Position numbers and translations under genes: made by a program. From Arctopsyche grandis (Eukaryota > Arthropoda > Insecta > Trichoptera > Hydropsychidae): a stretch of DNA of 64,000 nt. A model generated the notes under the pieces. It was not told the DNA's origin. It saw only the letters and a list, made by a program, of their open reading frames with translations, and ran no database searches. Positions 6,249 to 63,407 of this stretch are shown here, one piece after another; position 1 is the first letter of the stretch; every line of letters begins with the position of its first letter. The DNA is taken from NCBI RefSeq assembly GCF_051622035.1, contig NC_135355.1:32902486-32966485 (forward strand), given 5' to 3'.

Positions 6249-9138
6249 CAGTGGCGGGCGGTGACTTTTCAAACAAGGGATGCTGTCCCTTGTTTGAAAA
6301 AAAAAACCGACCAATTTATTTTTTAAAATTTAATTTTATTCTTCGTTCCTTTTTACAAAATTCATCGATAACCGCATCATAGAATTTTTTATTGTTTTTT
6401 AAATTTGACATTATTTTCTTTTCGATTGCAATTAAAGCAAGACCAGAGAGTCTTTCTTCACTTTGACTACTTCTGGTGAACGTTTTAATTCTTTTCATAG
6501 TCGAAAATGATCGATCAGCCGATGCGCTCGTGGAAGGTATCGTACAAATTAATTGTATTAAACTAAATACTTGTTCCAAAACGTCTATTAGATCATCTTT
6601 CACAATTAATTCCTTTACGTCATTTATAGATTTCAAATGAAAATCTTGCGTTGAGTACATGTAAATTAATTCGCTTTTTAATTTCATAAAATCAAAGTAT
6701 TTTCCATAAGTTAGGTGGAGTGATTTAAATAGGAAATCTGGAAAATTATTTTCATATTCTTTAAATTTTTTGACGTTAAAAAATTCGAGAAATTTTAAAT
6801 TTTCGATATCTCGAAATCGATTGGTTGTATTTACTGAAAGAGTTTCTAAAATTTCAGAATAGTGAAGTTTATACGTTGTTTTCACATCTTCTTCACATTC
6901 AGCATATTTTCTTTTTCTATTAAAATTTTTAGTTATTACTTTGTTCCACAATGAATCAAAATCGTCTTTTTTGTTATCTAAATATTTTACAAATTTTTTA
7001 ATTTCACTTACGCAATACGATATGTCAAAGGTTTTTTTTTGTAAAATTTCAAATAAAAAATCTGCCGAATTAAATATTGCAGAAAATAAATGCAAATTGA
7101 AATTGAATTCAAACTCTTTTAAATAACGATGAAGGACTTCAGCATTTATGACAGCATCAGTATCCCATTCGTCTTCGTCATTAATTATTTGATTAAATAT
7201 TTCCATTAATTCTGTTTGATATTCTAATATCATATTTAAAATTTTGCTATTGTAGTTCCATCGTGTAGGGGCAGCAGTGGGAAATCGTTTTTTTATTTGA
7301 CAATCGAGAAGGGAAATTCTTCTTGAAGACTTACAAAAAAAAGTTGAAAATGACAACATACGGCTGAAAAAACGTTTGCATCCGGATATATGTTTAACAG
7401 ATTGCGACAAAACTAAATTCAATCTGTGAGCGTAACAATGGACAAATAAAGAATTAGGACAAATATCTCGAATTTTTCGTTGCACTCCATTATGCTCCCC
7501 GGACATTACAGCCGCTCCATCGTACGTTTGTGCAATTAATTTGTCCAAACAACCAAATTCTTCCAAGGTCTCACGTATGTGCTGAAAAAGAGCATTAGCT
7601 GTTCTATTGGGACTAACATCGACAAATCCAACAAATCTCTCCTGAATTTCATTATTTTCATCTACATATCTAAAAATAGTAGATAGCTGAGCTTTGCGAC
7701 TGATATCTGTAGATTCGTCCACAATTATGGAAACAAATTTTGATGCACGTATTTCAGTTTTAATCTCATCTAGCAAGACTTTTGATATTGCGGATACCAA
7801 GTCATTTTGTATATGGTTCGATAGTCCAGTAAACACCGTAGAGTTATCTAAATGAGTTTTCAATTTTATGTCTGATTCACTCAACAGATACAGCAATTCA
7901 ATATAATTCCCTCTATTTTCCGATTCCTGGTGCTCAAAATGTCCTCGTAAAGGTTGTTCTTGTTTTGCTAAAAAATAGATCGCGCTTATTAATTTCGACA
8001 AAATGTATCTATTTGCAGTAACTTCTTTGTTGTGCATTTCAATATTTGCTTTAAATTGAGCACTTAAAAAATTTTCTATACGAGGTCCCTTTCCAAATTT
8101 TTTAAATTGAGCAGCAGAACATATGTGAGCTTGAGAACATTCATGTCTCTTGCGCGATTTACTTAAATTGTTTAGGTCAGAAAATCCAAATTTACTCCAG
8201 ACATTCACTTCTTGAGAAAATAAAATACATGGCCAACAGAATAATTTCGTTAAGTGAGCACATCCACAAATCCATGAAATTTTTTCGTATGTTTCTGTGT
8301 TAAAATACCTTTTAAATGTTTTTGTTTTAGACTGAATATTTAATATTGGTGTGGGTTTGGGGCTCTTAACAATAATCTCCTTTTCATTAAATGGGAGAGA
8401 AGCAAATCTTCTTTTCAGCACATTTTCAATTAAACAATTGCAATTATTATTGATCTCGACGACAAGTCCACTCTCATTGTTATTTTCGATATCCATATTA
8501 AAGGCAATAATGAAAACTCGTAAGTAGTGGAACAGTAAACTAAAAATAAAGTTAGACGAAACTAATTTAAATGAAAACTTAATTCAAAAGTAAAAAATAA
8601 CCAACTTACAGTATAAATGATTAACTTCGTCTAAAGAAATGAATCGGCTAGCTTTTTGATAAATAACTTGGGGCGTAGCGTGCGGAAATATCGATCAACA
8701 GCGGCTTCCAAGTGAAACTCAATAGATAAGCAAACAGAGAAACCGAATCCACCGTAGAGGTTAAACAAGTGTCAACGCGTCCGCGCGAATAAGACAGCCT
8801 CATAGTGCGCATGCGCAAATGGGATCGGTCGCGACTCCGAATCCATGACGCGCGCGCACTTCACTCAGCGTCTACTCGCCAGCGTCACTCGCCTGTGGCC
8901 GGCCTATGCGAATGCGGCCTATGCGAATCCTTAATAAAAATTATCAAAAGATCCTATATAATGCATCATGTAACAAAAAACACGTGATATGTGAAATATA
9001 TATCATATACTACATCATAATCACGTACATCACTAAGAATACATCGAAGCGAAATTCAAATATTTATTAAAAATACTCTTGGCTTTTTAAAGTTATAGGG
9101 GATGCGCCGCATCCACCGCATCCATGGACCGCACGCCA

Positions 9139-9208: not shown

Positions 9209-10410
9209 TCATCATCATTTACAGCCACTCGCCATCCACTGCTGGATGAAGGCCTCTCCAACACGATTCAACTCGTCTCTGTTTTGCGCAACACTCATCC
9301 ATCTCATTCCGCACATTTTCCTAATTTCGTTCACCCATCGTCCTTGCGGTCTTCCTTTTACTCTTTTGCCTTCTCTCGGGTACCATTCAAGCACTTTTTT
9401 TGTCCACCTTTCGTCCATCCTCCTAGCTACGTGACCCGCCCATTGCCATTTCAATCTCTTCACTCTATCCACTATGTCCACTACTCTTGTCATTCTCACC
9501 CACGTGTTCCGCTTTCTGTCTTTTCTCGTTATGCCAAGCATACAGCGTTCCATACTTCTTTTAGTGCATGGATTTGGATTTGGATTTTATTTAGCATCTT
9601 GGCGTTCAGTGTCCAAGTTTCACATCCATACGTCATCACTGGCAAAACGCATTGATCAAAGATCCTTTTCTTCAGGCAGAGTGGCATTTTTTATGTAAAA
9701 ACAGCATTCATTCGTCCAAATGCACTCCATCCTAATTTCATACGTCTCTTTATCTCTTCATCTTTACTACCAGACATGTCAGTTTTTTGACCTAAATATA
9801 AATAATTATTTACTACTTCTACTGGTTTATCATCTAATGGGATTCTATCAGGCATGCAATAACTATTGAACATTAGTTTGGTCTTATCTACGTTAATTTT
9901 TAATCCTACTTTTCTACTTTCCCTGTCCAGCTGTGTTAGTCTGATAAGTAGGTCAGCTGAATCACGAGCTACTAAAACTATATCGTCTGCGAACCGAAGG
10001 TGACCCAAGAAGCGACCATTAATGCTTACTCCGGCTGTGTCCCAATCCAAGTTCCTGAAAACTCCCTCAAGCACCGCATTGAATAACTTGGGCGAGATTG
10101 TATCTCCTTGTCTTACTCCTTTTCCTATGCTAAATCTATCTGTACCTGAAAAAATTTTAACCGAAGCTGTGGCATTCTTATATATTGCAGCTAACAGTCC
10201 CACATAGGTTTCCTGCACTCCCTGTGTTTGTAGAGCGTTAAGTACTGCATTATGGCTAACTGTATCGAAGGCTTTCTCATAATCGACGAAACCTAGGCAC
10301 AATGGTCGTTGATATTCGTTGGCGCGCTCGATTAGTTCGCCAACTACTTGTAGGTGGTCCATTGTGCTGAAATTTGCCCTAAGCCCTGCCTGCTCTATTT
10401 GCGAATCCAA
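9206..10410 (-). mobile_element. RTE-type non-LTR retrotransposon, 5'-truncated and broken
   Basis: On the minus strand, 10410-9691 encodes a reverse-transcriptase piece with motifs VDYEKAFDTV, KGVRQGDTISPKLFNAVLE and LRFADDIVLVA (FADD active-site box), then LKINVDKTKLM. After an in-frame stop the same frame goes on (MPLCLKKRIFDQCVLPVMT). A frame change then leads to 9553-9215, with WQWAGHVARRMDERW and GRPQGRWVNEI, the C-terminal part typical of RTE-like elements annotated as endonuclease-reverse transcriptase in insects. The 5' half (endonuclease and early RT) is missing. The 3' end runs into an ATG/AT repeat. One stop, one frameshift and the truncation make it non-functional. Confidence 0.85.
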
Positions 10411-10575
10411 ATCGATTGTTTCCTATCAGAGTTTGATAAATTTATCTGATTTCGATGTCGAAACGGTTCCTCGTTCTACCCACTATGTCACCACTATTTG
10501 AATATGATTTCAAAAAATTTAATCTATGAATTTATATACGTACAAGTTTATTTTCATATTTATTTATCATATAAC
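10405..10575 (+). repeat. SINE family A, 3' body fragment
   Basis: Begins abruptly at the LINE boundary with the family-A GTTTCCTATCAGAGTTTG block and runs through the CTACCCACTATGTCACCACT block. The tRNA-like head is absent. It meets a second, reversed SINE tail at about 10577. Confidence 0.6.
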
Positions 10576-12570: not shown

Positions 12571-12870
12571 CGGTCTCCGTCACGAGCCCGAATGTGAAAC
12601 GCCCGAAAACACAAATGTCAGAAGGCAAAGACCGAAAATCGAAAGATCTTAAGTCGAAAGATCAAAAAAAAAATGTGCGCGCACATTAATACGGGAGGAA
12701 AAGCCTGTTCCTCTTGTTCCTGTTGTATCCTGCTCGCGCAAATTAAGTGAGGATGTACGTGAGTATGTACCGTTTACCATGCACCCTTTTTTTTTGATCT
12801 TTCGACTTAAGATCTTTCGATTTTCGGTCTTTGCCTTCGGGTTTCACATTCGGGCTCGTGAGGTAGACCC
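12571..12870. mobile_element. MITE with 9-bp TSD, family M9, copy 1
   Basis: A 300-bp non-autonomous element. The left end reads CGGTCTCCGTCACGAGCCCG. The right end reverse-complemented reads GGGTCTACCTCACGAGCCCG. Long internal inverted arms of about 100 bp follow. It is flanked on both sides by CAAATATAC (12562-12570 and 12871-12879), a perfect 9-bp TSD. Nine-base duplications are typical of Mutator-like elements, which is the best guess for the superfamily. The middle carries a unique segment with CCTGTTCCTCTTGTTCC shared with the copies at 54815 and 55458. Confidence 0.8.
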
Positions 12871-45515: not shown

Positions 45516-46870
45516 TCAATTAAAATTATTTCCGATGGAATTAGCTACAACTTCATAGTTTTCAGCAATGGAGTCAAATCCATCGTCGGCTTTAAAGTGA
45601 CTTTCGACATGAATTTCAAAGTCGTCAAATGATATGTCTGCAAAATTTTCTCCACACATGGGACAAATCATTTTTGAAGTCTTCTTGTGTGCATTGAATT
45701 TCTTCGAATGCTGCGGAAACTGTCCGGGTGATTCGTAATACGTGTGGTTGGTATTGTTAGCACCGTTCACGTTTTGTGAATTTTCACTAATATTCGTAGC
45801 ACTTGCCTGATGAACACGATTTGGTGGAAGTCTCTCAACCAGTTCATCATTAAAAGACGTTAAACTGTTTGCAGTTTCCCACTTTGTGGAACTATCATGC
45901 AATCCTACATCGGAAGAACTTGTTTCTAATTTTTCTTTGATTGGAGATGTTTCCATCAAGTTTTTTGACAGATTTCTGCATTTTTTACATTCAGCTTTAT
46001 CTGTAAAATGAATAAAAACACAGTAAAAAGAACAAAAATCGTTATTTATTATGAAAATGAAACAAACAAATGAAAATTCTTTAAAATTTCAATTTTACCT
46101 GCTTTTAAAGCTTCTATGTTATTCAAGCACTCCTTCAAATCTATTTGTTGCTGTAAGGCTAATTTCTTAAGATTGCACATATTTTCTTTCTGCTTCTTGA
46201 TCGCAGCAAGGGAATCATTATTGAAATCGTCCAGATATGTGAAGCCTATTGAACTTTCATTACAAGTTCTTTCAGAATTTATTTGCATGTCTACCATTTG
46301 CTCATATTGATGAACCAATTCGCTCTTCTCCCACAGAAAAGTGTCGATCAATTTGAGTGAAATCTCTTCCAAGCTGTTCTTGAAGTCTTTGTTTTCCTCC
46401 TCTAACTTGGCTGCCAATTTTGAATCGGATCTATAGTGTGTGAAAGTTTGAGATCGAGTTAGGGGCGGAGCCGTAAATTCTATCTTTTCATGGGTCGAGT
46501 CCATATCTGTCGTCTGATTATTCCTCTCCTTTTCGGTGTTGCTAGCTTTAGTCAGCTGAGACAATCGCGACCACAATTTTTTATTTTCGCAAGCAACTAT
46601 GAAGATGTGGTGGGCTAATTGAGACTTTTCTTTGGTGAGTTGTGCAATACTTGCGTTTAGAGATTCGACAGAGCTGTTGGGGACATAGGTCGGTTTCATT
46701 TTACTATTAGTCACACTGAGCTGAACGTTTTCTTTCTCGAGCGTGTTCAGCCTGTGCTGCAACAAGTAGCAGCGCTCCTTCATTGTCTGAAGGGCGATGC
46801 GGTTGGCGCTGCGACTTAACGCGTTATTTCCACCAGATAAACACATAGGCACCTTTAATTCTGCGTCCAT
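45516..46870 (-). CDS. coiled-coil protein with C-terminal UBZ-like zinc finger (possible spindle-F)
   Basis: Two exons on the minus strand: 46870-46099 and 46000-45516. They are joined by a 98-bp GT-AG intron in phase 1, giving about 418 residues. Starts MDAELKVPMCLSGGNNALSR. Residues ~27-60 (ALQTMKERCYLLQHRLNTLE) and 65-105 form heptad-rich coils, and a longer coil lies near 150-255. A CKKC pair opens exon 2. Near the end CPMC...H-x3-H (C370, C373, H388, H392) matches the UBZ/CALCOCO-type finger of TAX1BP1-like autophagy receptors. The N-terminal ALQTMKERC...RL..LE.EN block resembles insect spindle-F, a cytoskeletal partner of the IKK-epsilon-like kinase Ik2, but I am only moderately sure. 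If so, it would work in oocyte polarity and bristle/dendrite shaping. The intron and frame are clear regardless of the name. Confidence 0.75.
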
Positions 46871-47149
46871 GTTTAATAGTTGTATTGTATACGAAAACCG
46901 ATAAGACAGCTGAGCTTATCAACAGAAGTAGCACGAAATGTCAACACTGTCAACTGAGTCGACAATTGGAGAAAGCTATGTAAGCCCATGAAGCCAAATT
47001 CATGGCCATCACCAAATAAATTTAACTTGTCAATATCACAGAAATTGATGGATTGTAAATTAATTAATTCAAAACGAACAACAGCTTCAGTTTTTCCTCT
47101 ATTTAATTACATAAAATATTAAATTTAGGAGGGGGAGAAAATATTAAAT
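46871..47149. promoter_or_regulatory. upstream region of the minus-strand coiled-coil gene
   Basis: No coding. The ~100 bases next to the start (46871-46985) are less AT-rich and contain CAACTGAGTCGAC and GATAAG-type motifs, but no core promoter element can be asserted. Confidence 0.3.
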
Positions 47150-48318: not shown

Positions 48319-48831
48319 GTAACATAAAGAAATGGGTTACATTAGTACATACAATTTTGCAGGATATAATATTTAATTTCATTGTTGGTCATGTGTACCT
48401 TATCAGAAAAGAGGAGCTCTTGTGCCTGATAAATTCAGCTATTACTATTTTCATGAGTTTGGTCATCGTATGCTTTTAGTCAATAAAGAAGTGTAGAGGT
48501 GCACTTAAAGACTATCCTCTATTGCATTTTAATTTCGAGAATCAATGCAACTTCTGACTTCTCATCTACGAAGCCGTGTCAGTTGGTCATGTTTATTTTG
48601 AGTTACAAAATAAAAATAAGTGAATTGTTTTTTTTTTGTATCATATATTATTTTTCAAAAATATATATTTTTAGATTTGTTTGATCTTGGTGATAAGTGA
48701 CCAGATATTTTTCGGTGTAATCGTCCAAAAAAAAAAAAAAAACCAAGTGAAATCTCCAGTAACACAAACAGAACCACCTTCTTGTGTAATAAATTATTCC
48801 ACAAAAAACAATCTCGCACCATGTACCGTTT

Positions 48832-48943
48832 ACCATGCACCCTTTTTTTTGATCTTTCGACTTAAGATCTTTCGATTTTCGATCTTTGCCTTCCAATATT
48901 TGCGTTTTCCGGCTTTTCACATTCCGGCCCGTCACGGAGACCG
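48832..48943. mobile_element. MITE family M9, one-ended fragment
   Basis: Matches the right arm of the 12571-12870 element from GTACCGTTTACCATGCACCC to the terminal CGTCACGGAGACCGG. The left half is missing. Confidence 0.65.
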
Positions 48944-49236: not shown

Positions 49237-49300
49237 ATGTGGTCTCCGTTGAAGGCCCTGGTGGCTCTCTGCTGCTTCTCTCCAGCCCTGGTGGCCTCCG
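49237..49300 (+). CDS. Nrx-IV: Nrx-IV exon 1: signal peptide
   Basis: Encodes [20 protein letters not shown], a classic signal peptide with a hydrophobic core and small residues at the cleavage site. It ends one base into a codon at a GTGAGT donor. The start is the only Met in frame after the GC-rich leader. A 437-bp intron separates it from exon 2, which supplies [11 protein letters not shown], the first Cys of the discoidin domain. Confidence 0.9.
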
Positions 49301-52300
49301 GTGAGTCCTCTCCCCCCCCTCTGCCCCTCCCCCTCGCAGCTAACCTCGCAGCCCCGCCCGGCTCCACTCTTCTCGTCGTGACTCACCGACCGCGCCCCCT
49401 TCATCAACAATATTCCATACTGAATACTGAATTCCAACAAATCATTTTCGCGCATTTTTCCATACCGATTCCCGCGGAAATATGACTCAATTTCGACACT
49501 CATTCATTAATTATTTATTAGCGGATGTGTCATCGAATGCACTATTCGTCGAATATTCTATCGATTGTGCGACTTATTGCATGTCAATTTTTATTAAATC
49601 AATTCCAAATGTGTCACCGCACATTTTGTTTAATCAATATAGGCATAGATTTTTTGTTTTGGTGTTTATTTGATCAATATTTTTGTCTCGATTGATTTTA
49701 TGTAAATAATGTTTATATACATATATATGAATTTCAGATTATTACAACAAATATTATGCCGACTATGAATGCAATACGCCGCTTTTAGATAGGGCTATTT
49801 TAAAAGCTACCTCATCGATGCAAGACAGAGGACCAAATAATACCAGACTTGATGGTAAGTTTCAATATGTGTATAAATTATATGATAACTTTTAAAAAGT
49901 AGTTAGATTTAAAATCTCATTACTTTCTGATTGGAATCTGTGAAGAATTTTTTTAATCAATGAATTATTTTGATTGTTTTATTTGTCGTAATAACAGTAA
50001 AATAATTTGGCGATGTGTTTATTTGCATAGATGCTTCTTATTTTGCTTTGATTTATATTTATGTAAATATACAGAACTCTTCTCATATAATAATTTTAAC
50101 AATGTTATTTAATATGAAGAGTTTAATATGTGTACGTAATTGTATGTATCAATTTTATATTTTTATGTCTGTGTTACATTTTTTGTTTTGAATTTAAAAA
50201 TACTAGTGTGATATTTTTTCAGCATGCTTTTTACTATTTTGAATATATTGACGGTATTTATTAGGTTTAGAATGATTTAAAATCGATTTTTGTGAACGTT
50301 TAAGGTGTTGAATAAATCATGGTAATACCTTGAATGTAAAAAATTCAGTACAGTTTGCTTTGTGCTGATGAAACATGTTTCTTAATTGTAACAAATTAAT
50401 ACCGTGCATTTGTCTGCAGGTGGTCATAGCTGTTGAAGTTTCACTGAGTATTGTTTCTAGTGTTTGGACTTTGAATAGAATATTTTTAGTAGTGATACCT
50501 CGGTAATGTTACACGTTAAAACGATGGCCGGTAAAAACACTTATAGGTGGGCCTTTCACGTACCTTCGTGGACCCCCACCGATGCTGAAATAATGTTATC
50601 TAGTGCTTGCATACAGTCCGAAGAAAAGGAGAGGATATCTAGATTCGTCTTCAAGCAAGATTTTAAATCGTCTCTAATCGGTCGACTGATGATGAGGAAA
50701 TTCGTCAACGTGTCCATGTCTATCCCCTATTCGGACATAATTTTTCAACGCGATCAAAAAGGAAAACCCGTTTATAATTCCGAGAAATGTACACACAAGT
50801 TCGACTTTAATATTTCTCACCAAGGCGACTATGTCGTATTAGCTGGACACGTCGGAGAAGCGAAAGTGGGCATTGACGTTATGAATATTGTCCCGCCCGT
50901 GAACAAAAATGTGCCTGAATTCTTCAGGTTGATGAATCGCCAATTTTCAGCACACGAGTGGAGTAGCATTAAGAAATTTAACACCGTCAAAGATCAACTG
51001 TCGTCGTTCTATAGGCATTGGTGTTTGAAAGAAAGCTATGTTAAAAACATCGGTGTCGGAATCACTGTAGATTTGCAGTCGATTAGTTTCAACGTAATCA
51101 CTCCTCGGTTGAAAGTGGGAGAGTTCATAACTGATACCGACGTCAACGTAAATGGTGTAAATTTAAAAGGTTGGATATTCGAAGAGAGTTCATTAGACGA
51201 TAATCATTCTGTAGCGGTCGCTGTAGATCTGAGAGGTGAAGAATATCATTCTCCGACTTCGTACACTATGTTTGATTTTGAGCAGCTTATCGATGGTGCT
51301 GTACCATTCGGAGAAGCCGATGAAGAGTTTACGTCGAATTTTTTCATGAAAGATGATAAAACATTTTAGTTCATAATAGTGTGATTTAATTTGTTGATAA
51401 AAATTTAAGGGTGTGGAATTCTTATATATATATATTTCGAATGTATACATTTGTTTATTTGTATCATAATAAATTGAAACATATAATTAAGATTTGCAGT
51501 ATTTTATTTTTAAGTAATTTACTTATATATATATTGTACATATATTTTATATATATATATAATATTTACCATACACCTTGAAGATATAAATGATTATTTA
51601 AACATAAGCTTAGAACTATTGATATTATAAAAAACTTAACATCACAAAAGGAGGCAACGCATGGACGGCGCAAGAGAACGATTTCGATCAGCAGCTGATA
51701 ATTAACTTGGGTTCTGTAATGAACATCACTCGCATAGCAACTCAAGGTCGTCCGCACTCTGCTGAATTCGTCACCGAGTTCGGCGTCAGTTACGGCTACA
51801 ATGGGTTGGATTACGCTGATTACAAAGAGCCTGGTGGCGACTCGAAGGTAAAAACAATAATGATACGGCTTACAAAACGCATCTTCCATTCAATTATTTC
51901 CGGAATGCTCTCTCGAAGGTCTTCGTTCATTACTGCTGCTATTTCACATGATAACATTCGCAACTAATGGTGGTGGAGTTTACCTTCAATAACCAATAAC
52001 GATATGAAATGGAGATGTATTGATGCATTTCTAGTATTGTATTTGAAATGTGTATGAAATGCAACCACGTTTATATAATATGTAGATATTGTTATTATGG
52101 CAAAAGAATGGAATATTTTAAATGTTTGATATTATTATGCGTAGAGTTTCAGGAATGCTTTGTTAACCTTTCCACTGCGGACGACTACTATACATGTCCT
52201 AGCGAACATGCCCTCAGCGCGCGAGACACGCATAGATGTCTCGGAAGTTCCAACCTGTATAAGAGCCGTCTTTTGTGTTAAAATTTTATAACTTGGTTGA

Positions 52301-55300
52301 AAATATTACTAAATGTAAACTTTACCAAATTTAATAGATGGCAGTAGTCAAAAAAAAAAAAAATATAGGTTGTAAAATTCAAAAAAATATTACAACCTAT
52401 ATTTATAGTCGAAAACGCGATAACAAAATGCGCAAAAAAGCAGCCGCGTACAGGGCATGTTCGCTAAATTTGGTGACGCGGGCAAAGGGTTAAGCAAACA
52501 TTTTAGTGCATATTTAGTGTCTGGGTAATATGTAAATTACATTTCTGAAAGTTTTTGATCAAATTATACATATATACTAAATGCCATTAAAAAATATAAA
52601 GCATAAGACTATTTATTTATATTTTATTTATTGATTATATATTTTTTTTACTCTATTGTATATATAATTTTTTTTTGGTTTTATTTCTTTTGTATGCATT
52701 TGCATGCTTTTATAATTTAGTGCTATGCTTTGCTTCTTAACAATATATTTTTATTATTTATATGAAATTATGATTCCAATTAACGATTGTGACATTAAAT
52801 ATACTGTTATATTATTATGAAAGAAGTTTCGCAAATAAGTAATGGCATTTTTTTTGTGTGATGTTAAAAATGTCACTCACGCGTTCCGGTCAGACTTGAT
52901 TTCAATTACAAATTTGCTATCATTAAATAAATTTTAGAACGTTCTCGTAAACCAAGACAATAAATCGTACCATAAAATCAGTTATACGTTTTACTTTCGC
53001 CGTTTCGACATACATATGCATATTTTATTTAAATTTTCTAGACTGTATTTAACCAGTTAAATGCCACTCGCGAAATATTTGATTTTTACCCGTACACTAG
53101 CGATTTAAAAATTATTTGAACATCAAAAATTATTTGATTCGCATAATTTGGGCCTCCCATAGGTTTAGTGTGACCTTGAGTGCATATCATGATGCACGAG
53201 AGTGCATCCTGATATGCAGACCTGATGATATTGTTGCATTTTTATTAAAAAACTCATTCAATAGTTTTGTTTAATTTTTGTAACCAAGTTCATTGATAGA
53301 TGGTGCTTGTAAATCCATTTTTAACGCTAAACATTTTAACATTTTGGAAGAGATATCGACGCGACTCGCCCGTGAGACGCTGGCGTACAAGGCGAATCAA
53401 TACGCGACTCACCAGTGAGTCGCTAGCGTACAATTGGCTGAATGGTTTCTTGTTGTCTTTTATATCATCGGTCTGTACAACGTGTGCAATGTGTAAATGT
53501 TGATTAAATATGAGTTTTATTAATGTTGTTGCGAAGGGGTGGGTGGAGGATCCAAGTAAAAGGCCAAAGTCGTCTCACAGCATTTATTCATGATTAAGGA
53601 GATACACGCACTGGCAGTGCTCAGTTCAGAATGTCTTGATATCGCCTTATAAGGGATAGGTCTCTCAGGACATCTTCGACTTCCGATTTGTTTACCTATT
53701 GTTATGGTCACATACTCGGATATGCATTCCCACGACACTCAGATCCACGGTATGGGTCACTTCTGAGAACTCCATTGGAATGCGACCGAGTACCGCTATC
53801 GCCGCATTGTTTAGCTTACTTGCACTTAGTTTGCAGATAATCCTCGAAACCAATATTATAACAGTCTCTGGGATGCTACTCGGGCTAAGCCGATTGCAAC
53901 TACTCGGCGGCTCTTTTTAGTATACGTAACAATATTTTAAGTTCGATCTCATTTGAATGATACAAAAAAAAATGCCATTATTATTGAAATTTCTTTCGGC
54001 TATACATATGTACATACATACATACATATATGCATGCAGAAAAAATGATACTAATACCGATATTAACTGTGGATTATTAAATTTGTGTGGTGGGGTCGCA
54101 GGCTCGAATGCGTGGAGCCCCGAGTCTAATAATTTAAATCAAGCGCTGGTGGTGGATTTGCGTAAACGTTACGAGTTGAGAGCGATGGCCACGCAAGGAC
54201 GCCGCTCGCCTCCAGATCATGTCACCGAGTTTATGCTCCAATACTCGGACGACGGTGAGGGCTGGCGAACTTACTCGACGCAAGCAGGCGAGGAAGAGGT
54301 ATTTGTAAATATATTGTAAATAGAGACGTTGTCGTTCACATACATACTCGTTATGCAAATGTATATGTTTTGTCGGGTTCATTAGTGCCGACGTGAAAAT
54401 GATCACAATGGAAGGTTAAAATGTCAACTTTGAATTCGATCGCTTAACAAAAGCTTCACCCTTTGCTTTAATATTCAATGCTTCACTATGAGCAATCACT
54501 GATACTAAAAAAAATGTTTTATTTTGCATGTTCAACTTTCATACTGTTTTTCTTTTCTATCATGTGTAAAGGTGATGGATTCATTTGTATATACATATAT
54601 AAATATATAATTTTAAGTGTGGATGTTTTTTTTTTTTATATATTATATTATTCAGGTTGAAGGTTGTTGATTCGATTAATCAATGTGAAATAAAAGTTTC
54701 TTTTAAACAAACTTGTTCGATCTGAAATAGTGCTACTCAGATGGTACGCAGTACTGTGTAATTTGGGTTTTTGAACGTTATTAGTGGTCTGCATCATGAT
54801 TACGTATTACAAATGGGTCTACCTCACGGGACCGAAAGTGAAATGGTCGAAAAAGCAAATGTCGGAAGGCAAAGATCGAAAATCGAAAGATATTAAGTCG
54901 AAAGATCAAAAAAAAAAGGGTGCATGGTAAACGGTACTATGTATATATAATATATATCAGTGGCATGTGGTGAAATTATCTCTCTTTTTGTCATACAGCT
55001 TTGTTTAATGTGCGCGCGCAGGATACGGGAGGAAAAGCCTGTTCCTCTTGTTCCTGTTGTATCCTGCTCGCGCAAATCAAGTGAGGATGTACGACGGGAG
55101 GAGATGGACTTTTACCGCACGCCACTCAATAATGTATATACAAACCGTTTTTCATATGTATGCATGATAAACGAATATTTTTGACTTTTTCACGGTCACC
55201 CATTACAAATGGATGCGTATTATAATAATTCTGTAAAAACCTGTGTGTTAATATATTTTATTTTTTTATTTATACCAGGAAAGCCTAATGGGTAACCCCA

Positions 55301-58300
55301 ATGCGCTTCTCTGGCCAGAAACATTGTACATTTGATACATAGATAATATTATACAAAGTAAATTCATATCAATCAACATCCATAGAGACATCTATGGTCA
55401 AATATGTAAATTTGCAGCGTTTTAACAGTTACTTTTTTCACACTATATTATTCTCACGGGTGACCGTCACCGTACCGAATTTTAAAAAGTCGAAAATGTT
55501 CGTTTACCATGCATACATATGAAAAACGGTTAATATATATATCGTCGTTTGGTCCAAGCTGGATTGGAAGTACGGCTACCTGCAAAGAAGCCAATGTTGA
55601 CCAAAATAATGCGAAAATCTCGTTTAAATTGGGCCAGACAGCATCAACACTTCTCTCTGGATGATTGGAAACTGGTAATTTAATATGAAAAAAAATAATT
55701 ATGAAATTAGACTAAATTTACAAAATCATTAATATGTGATTAATATTTGACCAAACGAAGTCGTACTGTTGACGTAGATATTTCACGTTTTCGTCCTTTA
55801 ATTGTTGTTGAATATTTTTTTTGTATTAAATCGATTCTTGGAAACAAGCCTGGCGATTTTTCGATCCACACGAGGGCCAATTTTTTTTTAGTACCACTAT
55901 TAGCTCGCCGACTGAGTGTGGGGTCGCAATCAGTCTCCAGATTTTGTTTTATTTTTCTAATAGACGCCCTACTAACACCCTCCATTGTCGCGATTTTGTT
56001 TTGAGAAAACTTTCCTGTATTTAATAATGATGTAATGCTTGCAATTTTTTCTTTAGAAAGATCTGATTTTCTACCCATCTAAAAAAATCCAATAAAAGTT
56101 TTACACGCAATTTAAATCTTAAAACAAAGTAAAATTTCGAGATATTATATACCAACTTACCTTAGAAATATGATAAAGTTGCAGTAAAAGAGAAAAAAAC
56201 ACAGTGCTTTTCACAAAATAATGAATGATTTTAACGGAAACGCACGTCAATATTGAACAAAATTCAGACGCAAACCGATTTCAAACATCTTTCTTTTGTT
56301 TTTGAAGACCTTTTGAGGGATAATCCACCGATATTTTTTGCTAGTGAATAGAGTTGCATTTAAGGATAAGATCACAAAAAAAATGAGGCCAAAAGTTCCC
56401 ATAATGAGTTATTTACGACCGTGACAAATTTACCCAAACGCATCTCGAGAGGGGTGGCGTAATATTCTGGTCAGGGACTGTATATCAGTGGCGTGCGGTA
56501 AAAGTCTCTCTCCCCCCCGTCGTACATCCTCACTTAATTTGCGCGAGCAGGATACAACAGGAACAAGAGGAACAGGCTTTTCCTCCCGAATCTGCGCGCG
56601 CACATTAAACAAGGCTGTATGACAAAAAGAGAGATAAATTCACCGCATGCCACTCATATATATTATATATACATAGTACCGTTTACCATGCACCGTTTTT
56701 TTTTATTTAATATCTTTCGATTTTCGATCTTTGCCTTCCGATATTTGCTTTTTCGGGCTTTTCACTTTCGGTCCCTTGAGGTACACCCTATTCTCACACT
56801 TATTATTTCATATAACATTATATAGGTATTATTGTACTATATAAAAAAAACTTGTCAGATTTAGTAAATTGGGGAAAGTATTAGAAAATTTTACTGTGTG
56901 GTAGAAACCTTGAAATATTTCGTAAAATCTTAGTAAATCCTATTGAATTTTATGTTTGAATAAAAAGTTTGAGGTTAAGAAAATTTTTTAAAATTATCGC
57001 AGAACTCTAGATGCGATTTTGATTTTGCAGAATTACTGCGTTACCGAATGAGTAGCACTGATTTAAAAATTTCTATTGATTGGATAAGATCAAATCAACA
57101 ATTCCACCTGATTTTTTGATATTTCAATGACACATTTGATACATAAATCTTTTTCGTTAGATGTTCAAAGGAAACATAGACGGAAATAATATAAAACGGA
57201 ATGAATTTGAAGTGCCCATTATAGCACAATGGTTGCGAATTAACCCGACCCGTTGGAGGGATCGCATATCTTTACGCCTTGAAGTTTACGGTTGTGATTA
57301 CGGTGAGTGACTCAATTCCGATTCGACATTGAAATCATACTACGTGTACTAATTCGTAGCGTTTATTTAGATGCCGATACACTGTACATGAACGGCTCGT
57401 CTTTGGTGAAGTGGGACTTGACCAGAGAACCGATATCAGCATCTCGCGAATCATTACGTTTAAGATTTAAAACGTCCATGGCCTCTGGAGTACTTTTGTA
57501 TTCGCGTGGATCTCAAGGAGATTTCATCGCTTTGCAGTTAAAGGACAATAGGCTGCTTCTAAATATGGATTTAGGTAATTGTATGGTGTGAATGCTTTAT
57601 TTGAATGCTAACATTTTTCGATTGTAATATGTGTTTTCTTTTTTTTTAAGGTTCTGGACTCATGACGCCAATGTCAGTCGGTTCTTTGCTGGACGATAAT
57701 ATTTGGCATGATGTGTTAATTTCACGAAATCGTCGTGATGTCGTATTCTCGGTGGATAGAGTTATAACGAGATCGCGTCTCAAGGGCGAATTCAGTCGTC
57801 TCAATCTCAATAGAGCGGTATATATTTTATCTCGTGAAGAATGTGTGCAAAATGTTTTTTAATTATTGCTAATTTTGTGCTGCGATTCTAGCTGTACATC
57901 GGAGGTGTGTCGAACAAGCAGGAGGGTATCGTCGTGACTCAAAACTTCACCGGCTGTATTGAAAATTTGTATTTAAATACGACAAACATGATTAGAGATA
58001 TCAAGGAAGCGTACGAAAATAACGAAGCCTTGCGATATGAGAAAGTGAACACTCTCTATACTTGTCCCGTAAGTTTGATCGAATGTTTAGGATATTTAAT
58101 GCTGTTTTTATTCGTTTTAATGTTTTGTGTTGTATTTGTAGGAGCCTCCGATTGTGCCTGTTACATTCTTGACAGAAGGTTCCTTTGCTCGTCTGCGAGG
58201 CTACGAAGGTTCTTCGACTCTTAACGTTTCGCTTTCGTTTAGATCGTACGAACCTAAAGGAATTCTCATCCAGCATAACTTCACCTCGCAAGGCTACTTA

Positions 58301-61300
58301 AAGGTTAGTTTGATTACACTAAATAATGGTAGATAGACAATGTGGCAAAATACTTACTTGCATATATACCCATTTTGCATAAATCTGATATTGTAATTTG
58401 TTTCAAGTTTTCCATATAGAATGTATGAATTGTGCATTATCTTTAAATTTTTTTAGACTCATCTAAACGAGCAATTTTTTCAATTTTTATATATTATGTA
58501 CTGGATACTTTCACTTGTATTTATATATATGTATTTATGCTATTTTCACCTGAAAGTTTAATATGTAAACATATTTAGCTTTCAAATTTTATTATCATAT
58601 TCATTAGTGTGTGGAATCTATGGTTGATTTGGGTATCAATTTTGATCCTCAACTCACCTTTCACAACTACATCAAGACAGTCGCTGACGTTTCCTTTCGC
58701 CAACTTAGATTTGTCTTGAGATATGCAAGGTTGTTCTCCATCCATTTGTCTTCTCGCTTGTGACAAGCACGCTAGAGTATAATGCTATAGTGTGGAATCC
58801 GCATGAAGCAAATTACTCTCTACGGATTGAGAAAGTGCAGAAAGTATTTCTTCGTTTCCTGTGTAAGAAAGAGTATGAGTATTAGCCATATCTCCACCCT
58901 ATTTATTTCATTTTGGGCATTCTTGGTGATAATTCCCCTGAACTTCAGAGAAACTTCTCATTAATTCGTTTTGTTCTCCACCTACTATGTGGTAATACGT
59001 CGTGCCCGTCCTTGCTGGAACAGTTGGGACTTTATGTCCCTATTAATTGCGTGCGTGGTAGACATCATCATTTGATGGTTGTACCTCCTGCCCGCACAGT
59101 GCTTTATCGGACGGCTCATATTCCAAGAACTTTCCGACTTCTCAATGAAATCGTTGTTGTCATGTGAATGTGATATTTTCCACATCAGTGAGTGTAGATT
59201 ATCATAGATTATTTTAACCTATTTGTCTGGTAGTCTGCGCTCATCATTATTTTCGTAATTGGATGTGATGTATGAGTGGAATTTTGGAATTTAACATCGG
59301 TTTTCTCCCTCACACGCGATCTCGCTCGCGTTAGATCAAATTGGCGGGTACCAAGTTGCTATGCTCATCCCTACTACATATGTATTTTGTTTATTTGTCC
59401 ATTGTGGAGCATTAGGGTTCTTCCTGTAATGCCACATTGGTCCAAAACTATAAATAAATAAATGTAAGTGGGTCCGAATTGGTGATTTTTTTTTGTATTC
59501 ATATTTTTACGTGCTTCTTCATAGGTATTTATGGAAGATGGTAAAGTGAAAGTCGAATTGGTGTCCGAAAACAATCCACCCATCCTCTTGGATAATTACG
59601 ACGAAGTTTTCAACGATGGTCGTTGGCATTCTTTGGTTTTAAGCGCATCTACAAATTCACTGGTTCTGTCAATCGATCAGCGTCCGATGCGCACCACAAG
59701 ACTGCTTAAGATTTCCACCGGATCCATTTATTACATTGCCGGAACTGGTAAATAAATCGGCAATGATTTTCTTAATAGAATGTTTGTTGATCACGTCAAT
59801 TTAACGGTAACGTTTTTCGCAGGCGAAAAATCAGGCAACGTTCGAGGTTTCGTCGGCTGTATGAGACTAATTTCCATCGACGGCAACTACAAACTACCTT
59901 CGGATTGGCGTGCAGAAGAATACGAAGGCCCAGTCGTATTCGACTCGTGCCGTATGACCGATAGGTACGATTCTGTTGAAATTTTATTTATGATTCATTC
60001 AACGTATCATATTTATTTGTTTTATAATTATCTTCAGGTGTAATCCAAATCCTTGCAAACATGACGGTGTCTGCCAGCAAAATTCAAGGGAATTCTTCTG
60101 CGATTGTTCTAATACTGGATACGCCGGAGCTGTTTGTCATACTCGTTAGTAATTTAATTTTGTTTATACATATATTGTTGTTATTAGTATTGTTTATAAT
60201 ATTTATTTTTTATTGTTCAGCCATTCATCCTCTATCTTGCCAAGCGTATAAAAACGTGATGCAATCTGATCAACGAGCTGAAATTCAAATCGATGTGGAC
60301 GGCTCTGGACCTTTGGATCCGTTCCAAGTCACCTGTGAATTTTTCGGTATGCATCGACCGATTATTTGTATGAATAATATGCTATCGGTAGTGTTATATG
60401 AAAAAGGTTTTGTATGTTTTAGCTGATGGGCGAGTACTTACTGTTGTGAGTCATTCGAACGAAATGACGACAAACGTAGATGGGTTCCAAGAGGCCGGAG
60501 CTTTCCGACAAGACATCACATATACGGCCTCCGCGCCACAGTTGGAAGCTTTGTTGAATCGTTCGCATACTTGCCGTCAGAGATTATCATATTCCTGTCA
60601 CGCATCTCGGCTGTTGAATTCGCCCAGTATGAATATGGAATATTTTATAGTTTGTTTTTATGATGTACGTATTTATTAACGGAATGTTAAATTATAGGTG
60701 ACGAGATAAATTTCAGACCGTTTGCCTGGTGGATGTCGAGGCACAATCAACGAATGGACTATTGGGCCGGTGCTTTGCCCGGTTCACGTAAATGCGAATG
60801 TGGCGTGCTAGGGACTTGCATTGATCCCAGCAAATGGTGCAACTGTGATTCCGGTCAAATAGGTATATAGTGTTCATACTGGTGTCGTCGGTCGTGTAAA
60901 TATTGCATGGTATTGATTGTGCGCTTAAAATTCAGGTTGGCAGGAGGACGGTGGTGATTTGACGGAGAAAGAGCATTTGCCAGTGAAACAGTTGCGGTTT
61001 GGCGATACTGGTACTCCGTTGGATGAGAAAGAAGGGCGTTACACGCTCGGACCTCTGATATGCGAAGGAGATGGTGATTATTTGTTTCTGTTTGATGTGG
61101 TTATTTTTGTGAATGCTTGCTTTATTTTGTTTGTTTGTGCGTTTTAGATTTGTTCAATAATATGGTGACGTTCCGTGTTACCGACGCTACTATCAATTTG
61201 CCGACGTTCGATATGGGTCACAGTGGAGATATCTACTTTGAATTCAAGACTACGATTGAAAATGCTGTTCTTTTCCATTCCAAGGTATGCAAATTACGCT

Positions 61301-63407
61301 GTTGTGTGTATTTATTTGTGGGTTTACTTTGATTAGTCGATATCTTGGATATTGACATTCGACTTGTGAAATTATTACCTAACCTATCTATTGCCTTCTT
61401 AAGAGAATACTCATACAAATCTGTATTACAGGGACCGCAAGATTATATAAAGCTTTCTATAATCGGTGGTAATCAAATCCAATTCCAATATCAGGCTGGA
61501 AGTGGACCACTCGGAATTTCGTCGCAGACCTCTAAGAGATTGGCCGATGATGAGTGGCATTCTGTTAGTGTAGAACGTAACAGGTAAATATACTGATCAA
61601 TCTGGATTCATTATTATGCTCACCTGACGATGGGCTCATAAGTCACAATGTAGTGCACTGGTAGAGCCATAGCATACCAGTAGATAGGTCGTGAGTTCAA
61701 GTTCCGGCCAAATACGCTCCTGGCAAGGTCTTTTGGTTATTAAAAAAACACAGATCGACCGTCTCCTGTTTTTATTTCACCTAATTTTTCGATTTTTCTA
61801 GCTTCAATGTTATGCCGAATCCAATAAATCGGTATCCTCCCCCTCTGTTTCTGGAAAATTCGAGTTATTAGCATCTCGAATTTGTTGAATCTTATAAATG
61901 CTACCTACATAATGTATTTCTCGCAAATTTGCTGTGTATCAAAATTTTGTTAGTTGTCCATAGATGTCTCTATTTGTATTCTATGTATTTATAAGTATGT
62001 ATGTAAATGTAAAATAAATATATTTTTCTTTAGAAAAGAGGCACGTATTGTAGTTGACGGCTCTGACAAATCTGAAGTGAGAGAACCTCCAGGTCCAGTG
62101 CGAGCGTTGCAGTTGAATTCACCATTCGTCTTGGGAGCTTCGGTGGACTATCGAGATGGATTTGTAGGTTGCATTCGGGCTCTGTTATTAAACGGCCGAC
62201 CTCAAGATCTCAGAGGATATGCCGAAAGAGGTATTGACTTGAATTCATATCGCATTTCATCAACGTGAAAGCGTATTTTGCTAATGTTTGGATTATTTTA
62301 GGTATTTACGGAGTCGGACCGGGATGCGCTGGTCGTTGCCATTCGAATCCTTGTCTCAACAACGGCACGTGCCACGAAGGCTACGATAGTTACACTTGCG
62401 ATTGCCGATGGACCGCTTTCAAAGGACCAATTTGCGCTGATGGTAATAAATATTGCATGTTGTTTATTTGGTGCTTTTTATTAAGTGTGCATTTTGAAAT
62501 GTTCGTTTTTTAATAGAAATCGGAGTGAATATGAAACCAAACTCGATGGTCAAATATGACTTTATGGGATCATGGAGGTCGACTATAGCCGAGAAGATAC
62601 GTGTCGGCTTCACCACGACTAATCCTAAAGGTTTCCTGTTGGGATTGTTCTCAAATATATCTGCAGAGTATCTCACTATTATGGTTTCTAATTCTGGTAA
62701 TTATTATATGACAATTTTTTATTATGATTGTACATATTGTAATTAGTACAATCTGAAATAATTTTTTTTTTTATGAATTATTAGGATACTTGCGTGTCGT
62801 TTTCGATTTTGGATTTGAACGTCAAGAAATTATATTCCCCAATAAGCACTTTGGCCTCGGACAATATCATGACGTGAGATTAACAAGGAAAAATGGAGGA
62901 TCTACGCTCGTATTACAGGTAAGATTTGTACAGTTTGCGAATTATAAGTAATCGTATCATATTAATTCGTTTTATTTAACTTAGGTGGACAATTATGAAG
63001 CTCACGAATATAACTTCGATATAAAGGAATCGGCTGACGCTCAATTCAATAATATACAGTACATGTACATAGGAAGGAATGAATCCATGGCAGAAGGCTT
63101 TGCAGGATGCGTGTCTCGTGTTGAATTCGACGATATATACCCGCTTAAATTACTCTTCCAAGAAGCGGGACCTTTGAGCGTCAAGAGCTATCCAGGTTAC
63201 AGTCTCTTTCGAAACGTGTAATCGGTTCAGAATCGGACATTTTATCAAACGAGTGCTTTATTTTTTTAGGTCCGTTGACTGAGGACTTCTGTGGCGTTGA
63301 ACCGGTGACACATCCACCGCTCATTTTAGAGACGAGACCACCGCCGTTGTTGGATGAAGACCAACTCGCCAAAGATTATCACAGAACTGACGAAGCCATC
63401 CTCGGAG
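49237..63407 (+). CDS. Nrx-IV: Neurexin IV (Caspr-type septate-junction protein), 3' end beyond window
   Basis: Exons: 49237-49300, 49738-49854, [51651-51847 or 54102-54298], 57161-57302, 57371-57574, 57651-57817, 57892-58068, 58142-58303, 59525-59747, 59823-59964, 60038-60144, 60221-60346, 60423-60626, 60698-60862, 60936-61073, 61148-61284, 61432-61583, 62034-62230, 62302-62442, 62517-62696, 62785-62918, 62985-63195, 63270-63407. All are GT-AG with consistent phases, giving 1208 codons in the window. The family is about 1280 residues, so only the transmembrane segment and protein-4.1-binding tail are missing. Domain order: signal peptide, discoidin (32-173), LamG1, LamG2, EGF1, fibrinogen-like, LamG3, EGF2, LamG4. 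In Drosophila it acts with Contactin and Neuroglian in septate junctions and the blood-brain barrier. The first introns are long and transposon-loaded. From 57 kb on most are 60-80 bp, except intron 8 (LINE), intron 17 (SINE) and the 147-bp intron 16. Confidence 0.95.
50506..51369 (+). CDS. Aasdhppt: L-aminoadipate-semialdehyde dehydrogenase phosphopantetheinyl transferase, nested in Nrx-IV intron 2
   Basis: Single-exon frame of 287 residues; the family has about 300. It transfers 4'-phosphopantetheine from CoA to serine of carrier domains (cytosolic fatty-acid synthase, mitochondrial ACP, lysine-pathway enzyme). Motifs in order: GRLMMRKF (~64), [10 protein letters not shown] (~86), [15 protein letters not shown] (~105), VGIDVM (~121, Mg-binding Asp), and [19 protein letters not shown] (~168, the W-x-x-KES/A-Y motif with catalytic/metal Glu). 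Two starts are possible: Met1 at 50506 (weak context) or Met7 at 50524 (A at -3, G at +4), and the second may be the main one. An AATAAA lies at 51468. It lies wholly inside Nrx-IV intron 2 on the same strand. Confidence 0.93.
   Translation: MLHVKTMAGKNTYRWAFHVPSWTPTDAEIMLSSACIQSEEKERISRFVFKQDFKSSLIGRLMMRKFVNVSMSIPYSDIIFQRDQKGKPVYNSEKCTHKFDFNISHQGDYVVLAGHVGEAKVGIDVMNIVPPVNKNVPEFFRLMNRQFSAHEWSSIKKFNTVKDQLSSFYRHWCLKESYVKNIGVGITVDLQSISFNVITPRLKVGEFITDTDVNVNGVNLKGWIFEESSLDDNHSVAVAVDLRGEEYHSPTSYTMFDFEQLIDGAVPFGEADEEFTSNFFMKDDKTF
51468..51473 (+). promoter_or_regulatory. polyadenylation signal of the nested Aasdhppt gene
   Basis: AATAAA about 100 bp after the Aasdhppt stop codon and about 180 bp before Nrx-IV exon 3a. 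Because both genes run the same way, Nrx-IV transcripts contain this signal in an intron. Confidence 0.6.
51651..51847 (+). CDS. Nrx-IV: Nrx-IV alternative exon 3a (discoidin half)
   Basis: 197 nt, entered in phase 1, left in phase 0. Encodes [20 protein letters not shown], then [20 protein letters not shown] and [19 protein letters not shown]. This is the central part of the discoidin domain, parallel to exon 3b. The acceptor (ACTTAACATCACAAAAG) has almost no pyrimidine tract and a branch-like TTAAC only about 12 bases from the exon. The donor is AAG|GTAAAA. By order it corresponds to Drosophila exon 3, the isoform reported in glia/septate junctions. Confidence 0.9.
51963..52000 (+). promoter_or_regulatory. 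possible HOW/Quaking binding site downstream of exon 3a
   Basis: ACTAAT at 51963-51968 followed by TAAC at 51990-51993 and again at 51997-52000. The spacer of 21 is one longer than the 1-20 range of the Quaking response element consensus. It lies 115 bases after the exon 3a donor. Confidence 0.35.
52163..52493. mobile_element. piggyBac-like MITE in the intron between exons 3a and 3b
   Basis: 331 bp bounded by TTAA on both sides. Ends TTAACCTTTCCACTGCGG and, reversed, TTAACCCTTTGCCCGCGTC. Inner inverted pairs AGCGAACATGCCCT/AGGGCATGTTCGCT and ATAGGTTGTAA/TTACAACCTAT could fold the whole element. No transposase. Confidence 0.6.
53524..53931 (-). mobile_element. putative second solo LTR
   Basis: About 408 bp, GC-richer than its surroundings. 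On the minus strand it starts TGTTACGTATACTAAAAAGA, has TTATAAGGCG then AATAAA in LTR order, and ends CCTTCGCAACAACA. No clean TSD was found, so the ends are uncertain. Confidence 0.4.
54050..54067 (+). promoter_or_regulatory. HOW/Quaking response element upstream of Nrx-IV exon 3b
   Basis: ACTAAT-N8-TAAC, an exact fit to the bipartite ACUAAY(N1-20)UAAY element bound by STAR-family proteins (Quaking, Drosophila HOW). It sits 35-52 bases before the exon 3b acceptor, which is also where the branch point should be. CTAAT and TTAAC both fit branch-site consensus, so a bound HOW could block or tune branch recognition. Function is inferred. Confidence 0.5.
54102..54298 (+). CDS. Nrx-IV: Nrx-IV alternative exon 3b (discoidin half)
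   Basis: 197 nt, the same phases as exon 3a. Encodes [20 protein letters not shown], then [20 protein letters not shown] and [21 protein letters not shown]. It aligns without gaps to exon 3a (NAW, ATQGR and VTEF are shared). The acceptor is G-rich (TGTGTGGTGGGGTCGCAG) with no pyrimidine tract. The donor GAG|GTATTT is weak. By order it corresponds to Drosophila exon 4, the isoform reported in neurons. Confidence 0.9.
54815..55200. mobile_element. MITE family M9, copy 2
   Basis: 386 bp. Ends GGGTCTACCTCACGGGACCG and, reversed, GGGTGACCGTGAAAAAGTC. Perfect 9-bp TSD ATTACAAAT (54806-54814, 55201-55209). An internal hAT-type unit at about 54958-55128 has CAGTGGCATGTGGT and ACCGCACGCCACT ends, like the hAT at 6249. 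Confidence 0.8.
55268..55400 (-). repeat. SINE family A tail between two M9 copies
   Basis: Minus-strand 3' end with a hairpin related to the family consensus (stem CCAGAGAAGC...GCTTTCCTGG) preceded by a short stretch of body. Confidence 0.55.
55458..56788. mobile_element. MITE family M9, copy 3, inverted and enlarged by a Tc1-like insertion
   Basis: Reads in the opposite direction to copy 2: begins GGGTGACCGTCACCG and ends GGTCCCTTGAGGTACACCC. Perfect 9-bp TSD TATTCTCAC (55449-55457, 56789-56797). It contains the same internal hAT-type unit (56486-56662). A roughly 940-bp Tc1-like fragment (55543-56480) lies between that unit and the left end. All of this lies in the Nrx-IV intron before exon 4. 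Confidence 0.8.
55543..56480 (-). pseudogene. Tc1-like transposase, truncated with an inverted segment
   Basis: On the minus strand 56078-55740 encodes [20 protein letters not shown] and the rest of a Tc1 N-terminal helix-turn-helix region, ending [12 protein letters not shown] at a stop. The continuation lies in the opposite orientation on the plus strand at 55543-55683: [20 protein letters not shown], then [19 protein letters not shown], the classic next block of Tc1 transposases. Both pieces share CGTTTGGTC at the junction. The catalytic DDE half is missing. The outer end TACAGTCCCTGACC (56467-56480, reversed) is a typical Tc1 terminus at a TA. Confidence 0.75.
57161..57302 (+). CDS. Nrx-IV: Nrx-IV exon 4: end of the discoidin domain
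   Basis: Encodes [20 protein letters not shown], then [20 protein letters not shown], the conserved C-terminal strand of F5/8C domains with its closing Cys (pairs with the Cys of exon 2). It is entered in phase 0, so either exon 3a or 3b can join it. Confidence 0.9.
57371..58068 (+). CDS. Nrx-IV: Nrx-IV exons 5-7: LamG1
   Basis: Exons 57371-57574, 57651-57817 and 57892-58068. The LamG pattern is clear: [20 protein letters not shown], then [20 protein letters not shown], then [19 protein letters not shown], then LYIGG and the closing [11 protein letters not shown]...C. Introns here are 73-76 bp. Confidence 0.9.
58142..59964 (+). CDS. Nrx-IV: Nrx-IV exons 8-10: LamG2
   Basis: Exons 58142-58303, 59525-59747, 59823-59964. 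LamG2 reads [20 protein letters not shown] across the intron to [12 protein letters not shown], then [20 protein letters not shown] and [17 protein letters not shown]. The intron after exon 8 is 1.2 kb because of a LINE insertion (58606-59462). Confidence 0.9.
58606..59462 (+). mobile_element. jockey/CR1-like LINE, longest 3' fragment (copy B), in Nrx-IV intron 8
   Basis: Retains more ORF2 sequence than the other copies: frames with [40 protein letters not shown] and [20 protein letters not shown], interrupted by stops and frame changes. It ends with the hairpin CCATTGTGGAGCATTAGGGT...GCCACATTGG (59399-59440) and an (AAATA)n tail. Confidence 0.75.
60038..60144 (+). CDS. Nrx-IV: Nrx-IV exon 11: EGF1
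   Basis: One exon encodes one EGF module: [20 protein letters not shown], then [13 protein letters not shown]. All six cysteines are present in standard spacing. Confidence 0.9.
60221..61073 (+). CDS. Nrx-IV: Nrx-IV exons 12-15: fibrinogen-like region
   Basis: Exons 60221-60346, 60423-60626, 60698-60862, 60936-61073. Reads [20 protein letters not shown], then [12 protein letters not shown], the fibrinogen-C-like start, later [20 protein letters not shown], then [20 protein letters not shown], as in Caspr proteins. Confidence 0.9.
61148..62230 (+). CDS. Nrx-IV: Nrx-IV exons 16-18: LamG3
   Basis: Exons 61148-61284, 61432-61583, 62034-62230. LamG3 reads [20 protein letters not shown], then [34 protein letters not shown] and [17 protein letters not shown]. 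The 450-bp intron before exon 18 holds a SINE (61629-61985). Confidence 0.9.
61629..61985 (+). repeat. tRNA-headed SINE family B (copy 2), in Nrx-IV intron 17
   Basis: Matches 787-1090: B-box-like GAGTTCAAGTTCC at about 61693, ACACAGATCGACCGTCTCCT, ATCCTCCCCCTCTG, ending near ATAGATGTCTCTA. It lies about 50 bp before the exon 18 acceptor. Confidence 0.65.
62302..62442 (+). CDS. Nrx-IV: Nrx-IV exon 19: EGF2
   Basis: Encodes [20 protein letters not shown], then [17 protein letters not shown], a second complete EGF module in one exon with symmetrical phase-1 borders. Confidence 0.9.
62517..63407 (+). CDS. Nrx-IV: Nrx-IV exons 20-23: LamG4 and juxtamembrane stalk
   Basis: Exons 62517-62696, 62785-62918, 62985-63195, 63270-63407. 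LamG4 reads [20 protein letters not shown], then [36 protein letters not shown] and [20 protein letters not shown]. The last exon ([20 protein letters not shown]) is the Pro-rich stalk before the membrane and ends in phase 1 at GTAGTA. The transmembrane exon must lie beyond 64000. Confidence 0.9.

Follow-up and report, generated by a model that had tools for sequence, protein, structure and literature searches.

Does the Neurexin IV gene of the caddisfly Arctopsyche grandis carry the same kind of exon switch as its Drosophila counterpart? In a passage of PMC11893892, exons 3 and 4 of fly Nrx-IV are described as mutually exclusive, with exon 3 promoted by Cdk12, Prp40 and HOW. The question arises from a 64,000-nucleotide stretch of caddisfly DNA (the window), in which a first-pass annotation had proposed two alternative versions of one discoidin-domain exon. 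These are called exon A and exon B below.

The Neurexin IV gene and its paired exons

The gene model within the window consists of exons 1 and 2, either A or B, and 20 common exons. Exon 1 (49237-49300, + strand) holds a start codon, chosen by eye, and a signal-peptide-like sequence in an open frame that runs to a CCG/gtgagt donor. Exon 2 (49738-49854, +), placed by the splice and frame model, ends in phase 1. The common exon after the alternatives (57161-57302, +) contains the end of the discoidin domain according to the splice model and Pfam. The remaining 19 common exons (57371-63407, +) encode laminin G and EGF sequence, and the gene continues past the window. Pfam analysis of the 1,208 codons of the isoform with A found one discoidin domain, at the N-terminus, four laminin G domains and two EGF stretches. 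This is the composition of a Neurexin IV/Caspr (CNTNAP) gene. Just past the window, in a stretch labelled L003, there is an open reading frame with a hydrophobic stretch (by eye) and the C-terminal residues EFFI. Its connection to the final exon of the window is a judgment by eye, and the only Pfam match there is unrelated and below threshold. For comparison, the C-terminus of fly Nrx-IV is given as EIFI and is required for Varicose binding (in a passage of PMC2414870), and insect Neurexin IV and Caspr are treated as an orthologous group (in a passage of PMC2570956). The domain composition supports the identification of the gene as Nrx-IV made in the first-pass annotation, and the EFFI-ending frame is compatible with it.

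Exon A (51651-51847, +) and exon B (54102-54298, +) are both 197 bp long. The borders that had been assigned to them are exact, with AG before and GT after each. Exon 2 closes with a single leftover G (49854). In the splice and frame check A and B alike take it up, and both exons end in phase 0 ahead of the exon at 57161. Either one fits between these two neighbors with matching phases and an open frame, as had been suggested. The exon at 57161 had been called exon 4. Physically it is the fifth, which fits the Drosophila numbering in which 3 and 4 are the alternatives.

The two exons are related in sequence. Read in frame with the joining codon, A starts GGNAW and B starts GSNAW. Their peptides align without gaps over 65 codons, with 20 identical and 35 similar positions (BLASTP, E 2e-13 as a single comparison). 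The in-register BLOSUM62 score is 105, a value reached by none of 100,000 shuffles. The description of A and B as alignable yet distinct versions of one segment, sharing NAW, ATQGR and VTEF, is therefore accurate at 20/65 identity. When exon A was compared with the 5,533 overlapping stop-free 65-codon stretches in the six frames of the window, B was the best after A itself (105) and the next scored 7. No third version was found among these stretches. In the 476-Mb genome, exon A matches only itself and B (E up to 0.001; two matches, two candidates scored). A and B are thus adjacent homologous exons of equal length and phase. Both are also recognized by the Pfam F5/8 type C model, at 44.2 and 51.4 bits respectively against a cut-off of 28.2. 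A covers positions 24-88 and B positions 24-86 of this 127-position model, about half of the domain.

Could the second copy have arisen through misassembly or by tandem duplication in recent times? The divergence of A and B, whose protein identity is 31%, contradicts both ideas, and the two exons are flanked by different introns. Such an origin can be dismissed for practical purposes. Another reading is that one of them has dropped out of splicing and survives only as a dead or cryptic duplicate. The pair is known here from genomic sequence, and the pyrimidine tract of exon A is poor. None of the other acceptors among the 23 is as short of T: here 3 of the 17 nt scored are T, and the next has 5. 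Counting C and T together, its tract (7/17) is second lowest, the lowest being that of exon 60698 (6). For the reading as a regulated, exclusive pair, the low T count is a point in favor and the C+T ranking a point against. However, A and B are both stop-free, their phases match and their AG/GT signals are present. Both have kept the shared discoidin residues and exceed the Pfam cut-off, whereas decay down to 31% identity should have broken the frame of a dead copy. A dead duplicate is thus very improbable.

One exon at a time

What happens to the reading frame if the exons are combined? With A alone the frame is open for 1,208 codons inside the window, and likewise with B alone. Joining both shifts the frame, giving a first stop at codon 138, and skipping both gives one at codon 70. 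The frame is therefore open with only one of them at a time. Because both or neither stops early, exactly one exon is needed in a protein-coding message. Messages with premature stops are degraded by nonsense-mediated decay, and this would be the fate of transcripts wrongly spliced to contain both exons or neither. Cells would make use of both A and B, and the choice would exchange roughly half the discoidin domain. Given the splice sites, the homology, the frame arithmetic and the fly precedent, A and B are very probably a mutually exclusive pair within the Neurexin IV gene.

Some familiar bases for exclusivity were considered and rejected. With 2,254 bp between the exons, steric exclusion does not suit. 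Every donor listed is GT and by eye none has U12 character, which sets aside U2/U12 incompatibility. Intron pairing of the docking-site type was checked with stems of at least 20 nt, and only AT-rich or transposon arms were seen in the 25 inverted pairs listed of 29.

Fly precedent and likely tissue roles

The tissue roles of the fly exons have been described. According to passages in the sources, exon 4 is used in neurons only and exon 3 in septate-junction cells (PMC8891220), the glial form is the exon 3 form and depends on HOW (PMC4267209), and a junction form exists alongside a neuronal form that works through Wrapper (PMC10635556). Together with PMC11893892, these passages bear out what the first-pass annotation had said of Drosophila, namely that exons 3 and 4 are mutually exclusive and distinguish junction from neuronal forms. 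The exon position, equal length and phase, frame arithmetic and domain composition found here lead to a fit with the Drosophila switch, and by position A and B would correspond to exons 3 and 4. In both species two alternatives replace each other after exon 2, and in the caddisfly the frame permits only one. HOW-type motifs, those of the caddisfly being candidates, are nearby in both cases, a likeness judged by position and descriptions.

Is the switch old, as had been proposed? Agreement comes from a passage of PMC8891220 naming similar Neurexin IV isoforms in Manduca, Galleria, Tribolium, Nasonia and Apis, with which the caddisfly pair was compared by description only. Neither neurexin nor Nrx is named in the main text of two surveys of mutually exclusive exons (PMC3303723, PMC6071210). 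No relatives of A, B or the A/B alignment were confirmed in viral contigs or in bacterial and archaeal genomes. Comparisons with other animals were limited to PDB chains. Among these, A is closest to lactadherin (40.8 bits), with CASPR2 at 29.0, and B scores 49.0 with coagulation factor V and 41.6 with CASPR2. The discoidin domain of human CASPR2 (PDB 5y4m) belongs to the same family and is matched by A at residues 44-102 and by B at residues 43-100. However, the solved chain has a single version, versus two here. These scores do not decide the tissue roles.

By position, A would give the septate-junction form and B the neuronal form. This assignment is made purely from the order of the exons in the gene and, by analogy with the fly, exon A is likely the junction form. 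What if A and B are both in use, only along other lines than the fly division between junctions and neurons? They might be split by developmental stage, for example, or the roles of A and B might be exchanged. Gene order, being the only basis for the roles, leaves room for this. Nevertheless, the fly roles do follow exon order (passages of PMC11893892, PMC8891220, PMC4267209 and PMC10635556), and similar isoforms are reported for five other insects (PMC8891220, in a passage without a word on tests of tissue use). A different division of labor is accordingly rather unlikely, and assignment of A to junctions and B to neurons is preferred.

Introns, a nested gene and candidate control sites

The introns around the pair differ in repeat content. 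The first-pass annotation had put about 2.25 kb and several transposons between the exons. The spacing stands, the A-B intron being 2,254 bp, but the transposons are not confirmed. A search of the window, L003 and the further stretch L004 (blastn, E 1e-8) turned up no other copy of this intron, and the repeats that could be demonstrated lie after B. In the same search, the intron before A also has no second copy in these stretches, whereas the intron after B has many. The latter contains a repeat-rich stretch with inverted arms (54799-56802, no strand assigned; blastn and repeat listing), including an open reading frame fragment (55740-56078, - strand) with a helix-turn-helix match that appears Tc1-like by eye. 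Other copies of this repeat family are at 12672-12870, at 48823-48942 and at 344-915 of L004, beside a STAR-family gene. Within the A-B intron, 53359-53433 holds an imperfect direct pair of a 32-nt unit (53359 and 53402, 88% alike, 43 nt apart), and 52200-52466 has 22-nt inverted arms (52200 and 52445, 86% complementary, 223 nt apart). These small repeats could be traces of mobile elements. Transposons in the A-B intron are neither proven nor disproved.

Elsewhere in the window, a 755-codon open frame (6316-8583, -) matches DUF4371 and the hAT transposase dimerization domain (Pfam), and a reverse-transcriptase open frame (9691-10422, -) is probably part of a LINE-like element, a class assigned by eye. 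Two overlapping open frames at 45516-46915 (-), one of which matches an autophagy-receptor-type C2H2 zinc finger (Pfam), likely represent a host gene upstream of Nrx-IV.

Intron 2 contains a gene of its own. An intronless open reading frame for an AASDHPPT-type phosphopantetheinyl transferase (50506-51369, +), with AASDHPPT_N and ACPS domains (Pfam), is on the same strand as Nrx-IV and has a single match in the genome (one match, one candidate). The coordinates are counted from its first ATG (50506), and another follows in frame at 50524. It is followed by an AATAAA (51468-51473, +), identified by its letters, 177 nt before exon A. A literature search found no account of this nested gene among the matches listed, which does not in itself prove absence. 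Might the nested gene be part of the switch? Cdk12 suppresses intronic polyadenylation. If the nested gene were transcribed, or if messages were polyadenylated prematurely there, use of A would be hindered unless Cdk12-dependent elongation suppressed this. If true, this would link an intronic poly(A) site with the dependence on Cdk12 reported from flies, but it is a long shot.

The other potential route of control is through HOW. A passage of PMC12868882 states that HOW binds ACUAA-type motifs, and adds that in one target an extra half-site did not increase binding. The related Quaking site consists of a core, NACUAAY, and a UAAY half-site (in a passage of PMC2697983). One candidate HOW/Quaking-type site in the A-B intron (51963-51993, +) begins 115 nt into the intron and consists of ACTAAT, a 21-nt spacer and TAAC. 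Another (54050-54067, +) is about 50 nt before B and has the same elements separated by 8 nt. In Quaking sites the spacer between core and half-site is 1-20 nt. The first candidate site exceeds this range. The A-B intron has no ACTAAY cores besides those at 51963 and 54050, each of which has TAAC downstream, and these are also the only ACTAAY-TAAY combinations in the gene's part of the window.

How surprising is this arrangement? Dinucleotide shuffles of the A-B intron placed bipartite sites in both flanks in 3 of 2,000 cases and cores in both flanks in 14 of 2,000, with flank limits (150 and 60 nt) and a spacer limit (25 nt) that were set after the sites had been seen. ACTAAY itself is not enriched in the intron (two cores against 1.59 expected, P 0.45), and at least two bipartite sites occur in 12.9% of shuffles. 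The window as a whole has 38 cores and 14 bipartite matches on the + strand, and 36 and 11 on the - strand. The 23 introns (10,349 bp) contain four cores, one of which is 22 nt before exon 57371 and resembles a branch point. A branch point of this kind is also a possible reading of the site before B.

A protein of the right type appears to be available. A STAR_dimer (STAR/QUA1) exon on contig C11 scores 66.8 bits with Pfam (cut-off 26.3) and matches GLD-1 and Quaking chains with E values of 3e-5 to 6e-3. Judged by its STAR_dimer exon, the genome contains a HOW/Quaking-type gene. This exon presumably belongs to HOW rather than to another STAR protein, to go by the fly sequence. In Drosophila, work by Rodrigues, Thuma and Klaembt in 2012 reportedly found that inclusion of one member of the exon pair depends on one HOW site, and that exclusion of exon 4 takes three further motifs. 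By a similar mechanism, a nuclear HOW/Quaking-type STAR protein would favor A and block B through the sites near the A donor and the B acceptor. The two candidate sites, where binding is putative, are weak evidence of regulation, and the chances that they put the A/B choice under HOW/Quaking-type control are about even.

The exon switch and its sharing among insects are already in print. The caddisfly pair is real and largely expected, and it leaves the accepted picture unchanged. What it adds is one more genome in which the Neurexin IV pair keeps its length, its phase and its shared discoidin residues despite 31% identity, along with exact coordinates for counting splice junctions. The two candidate HOW sites, in turn, permit a specific test of this regulation outside flies.
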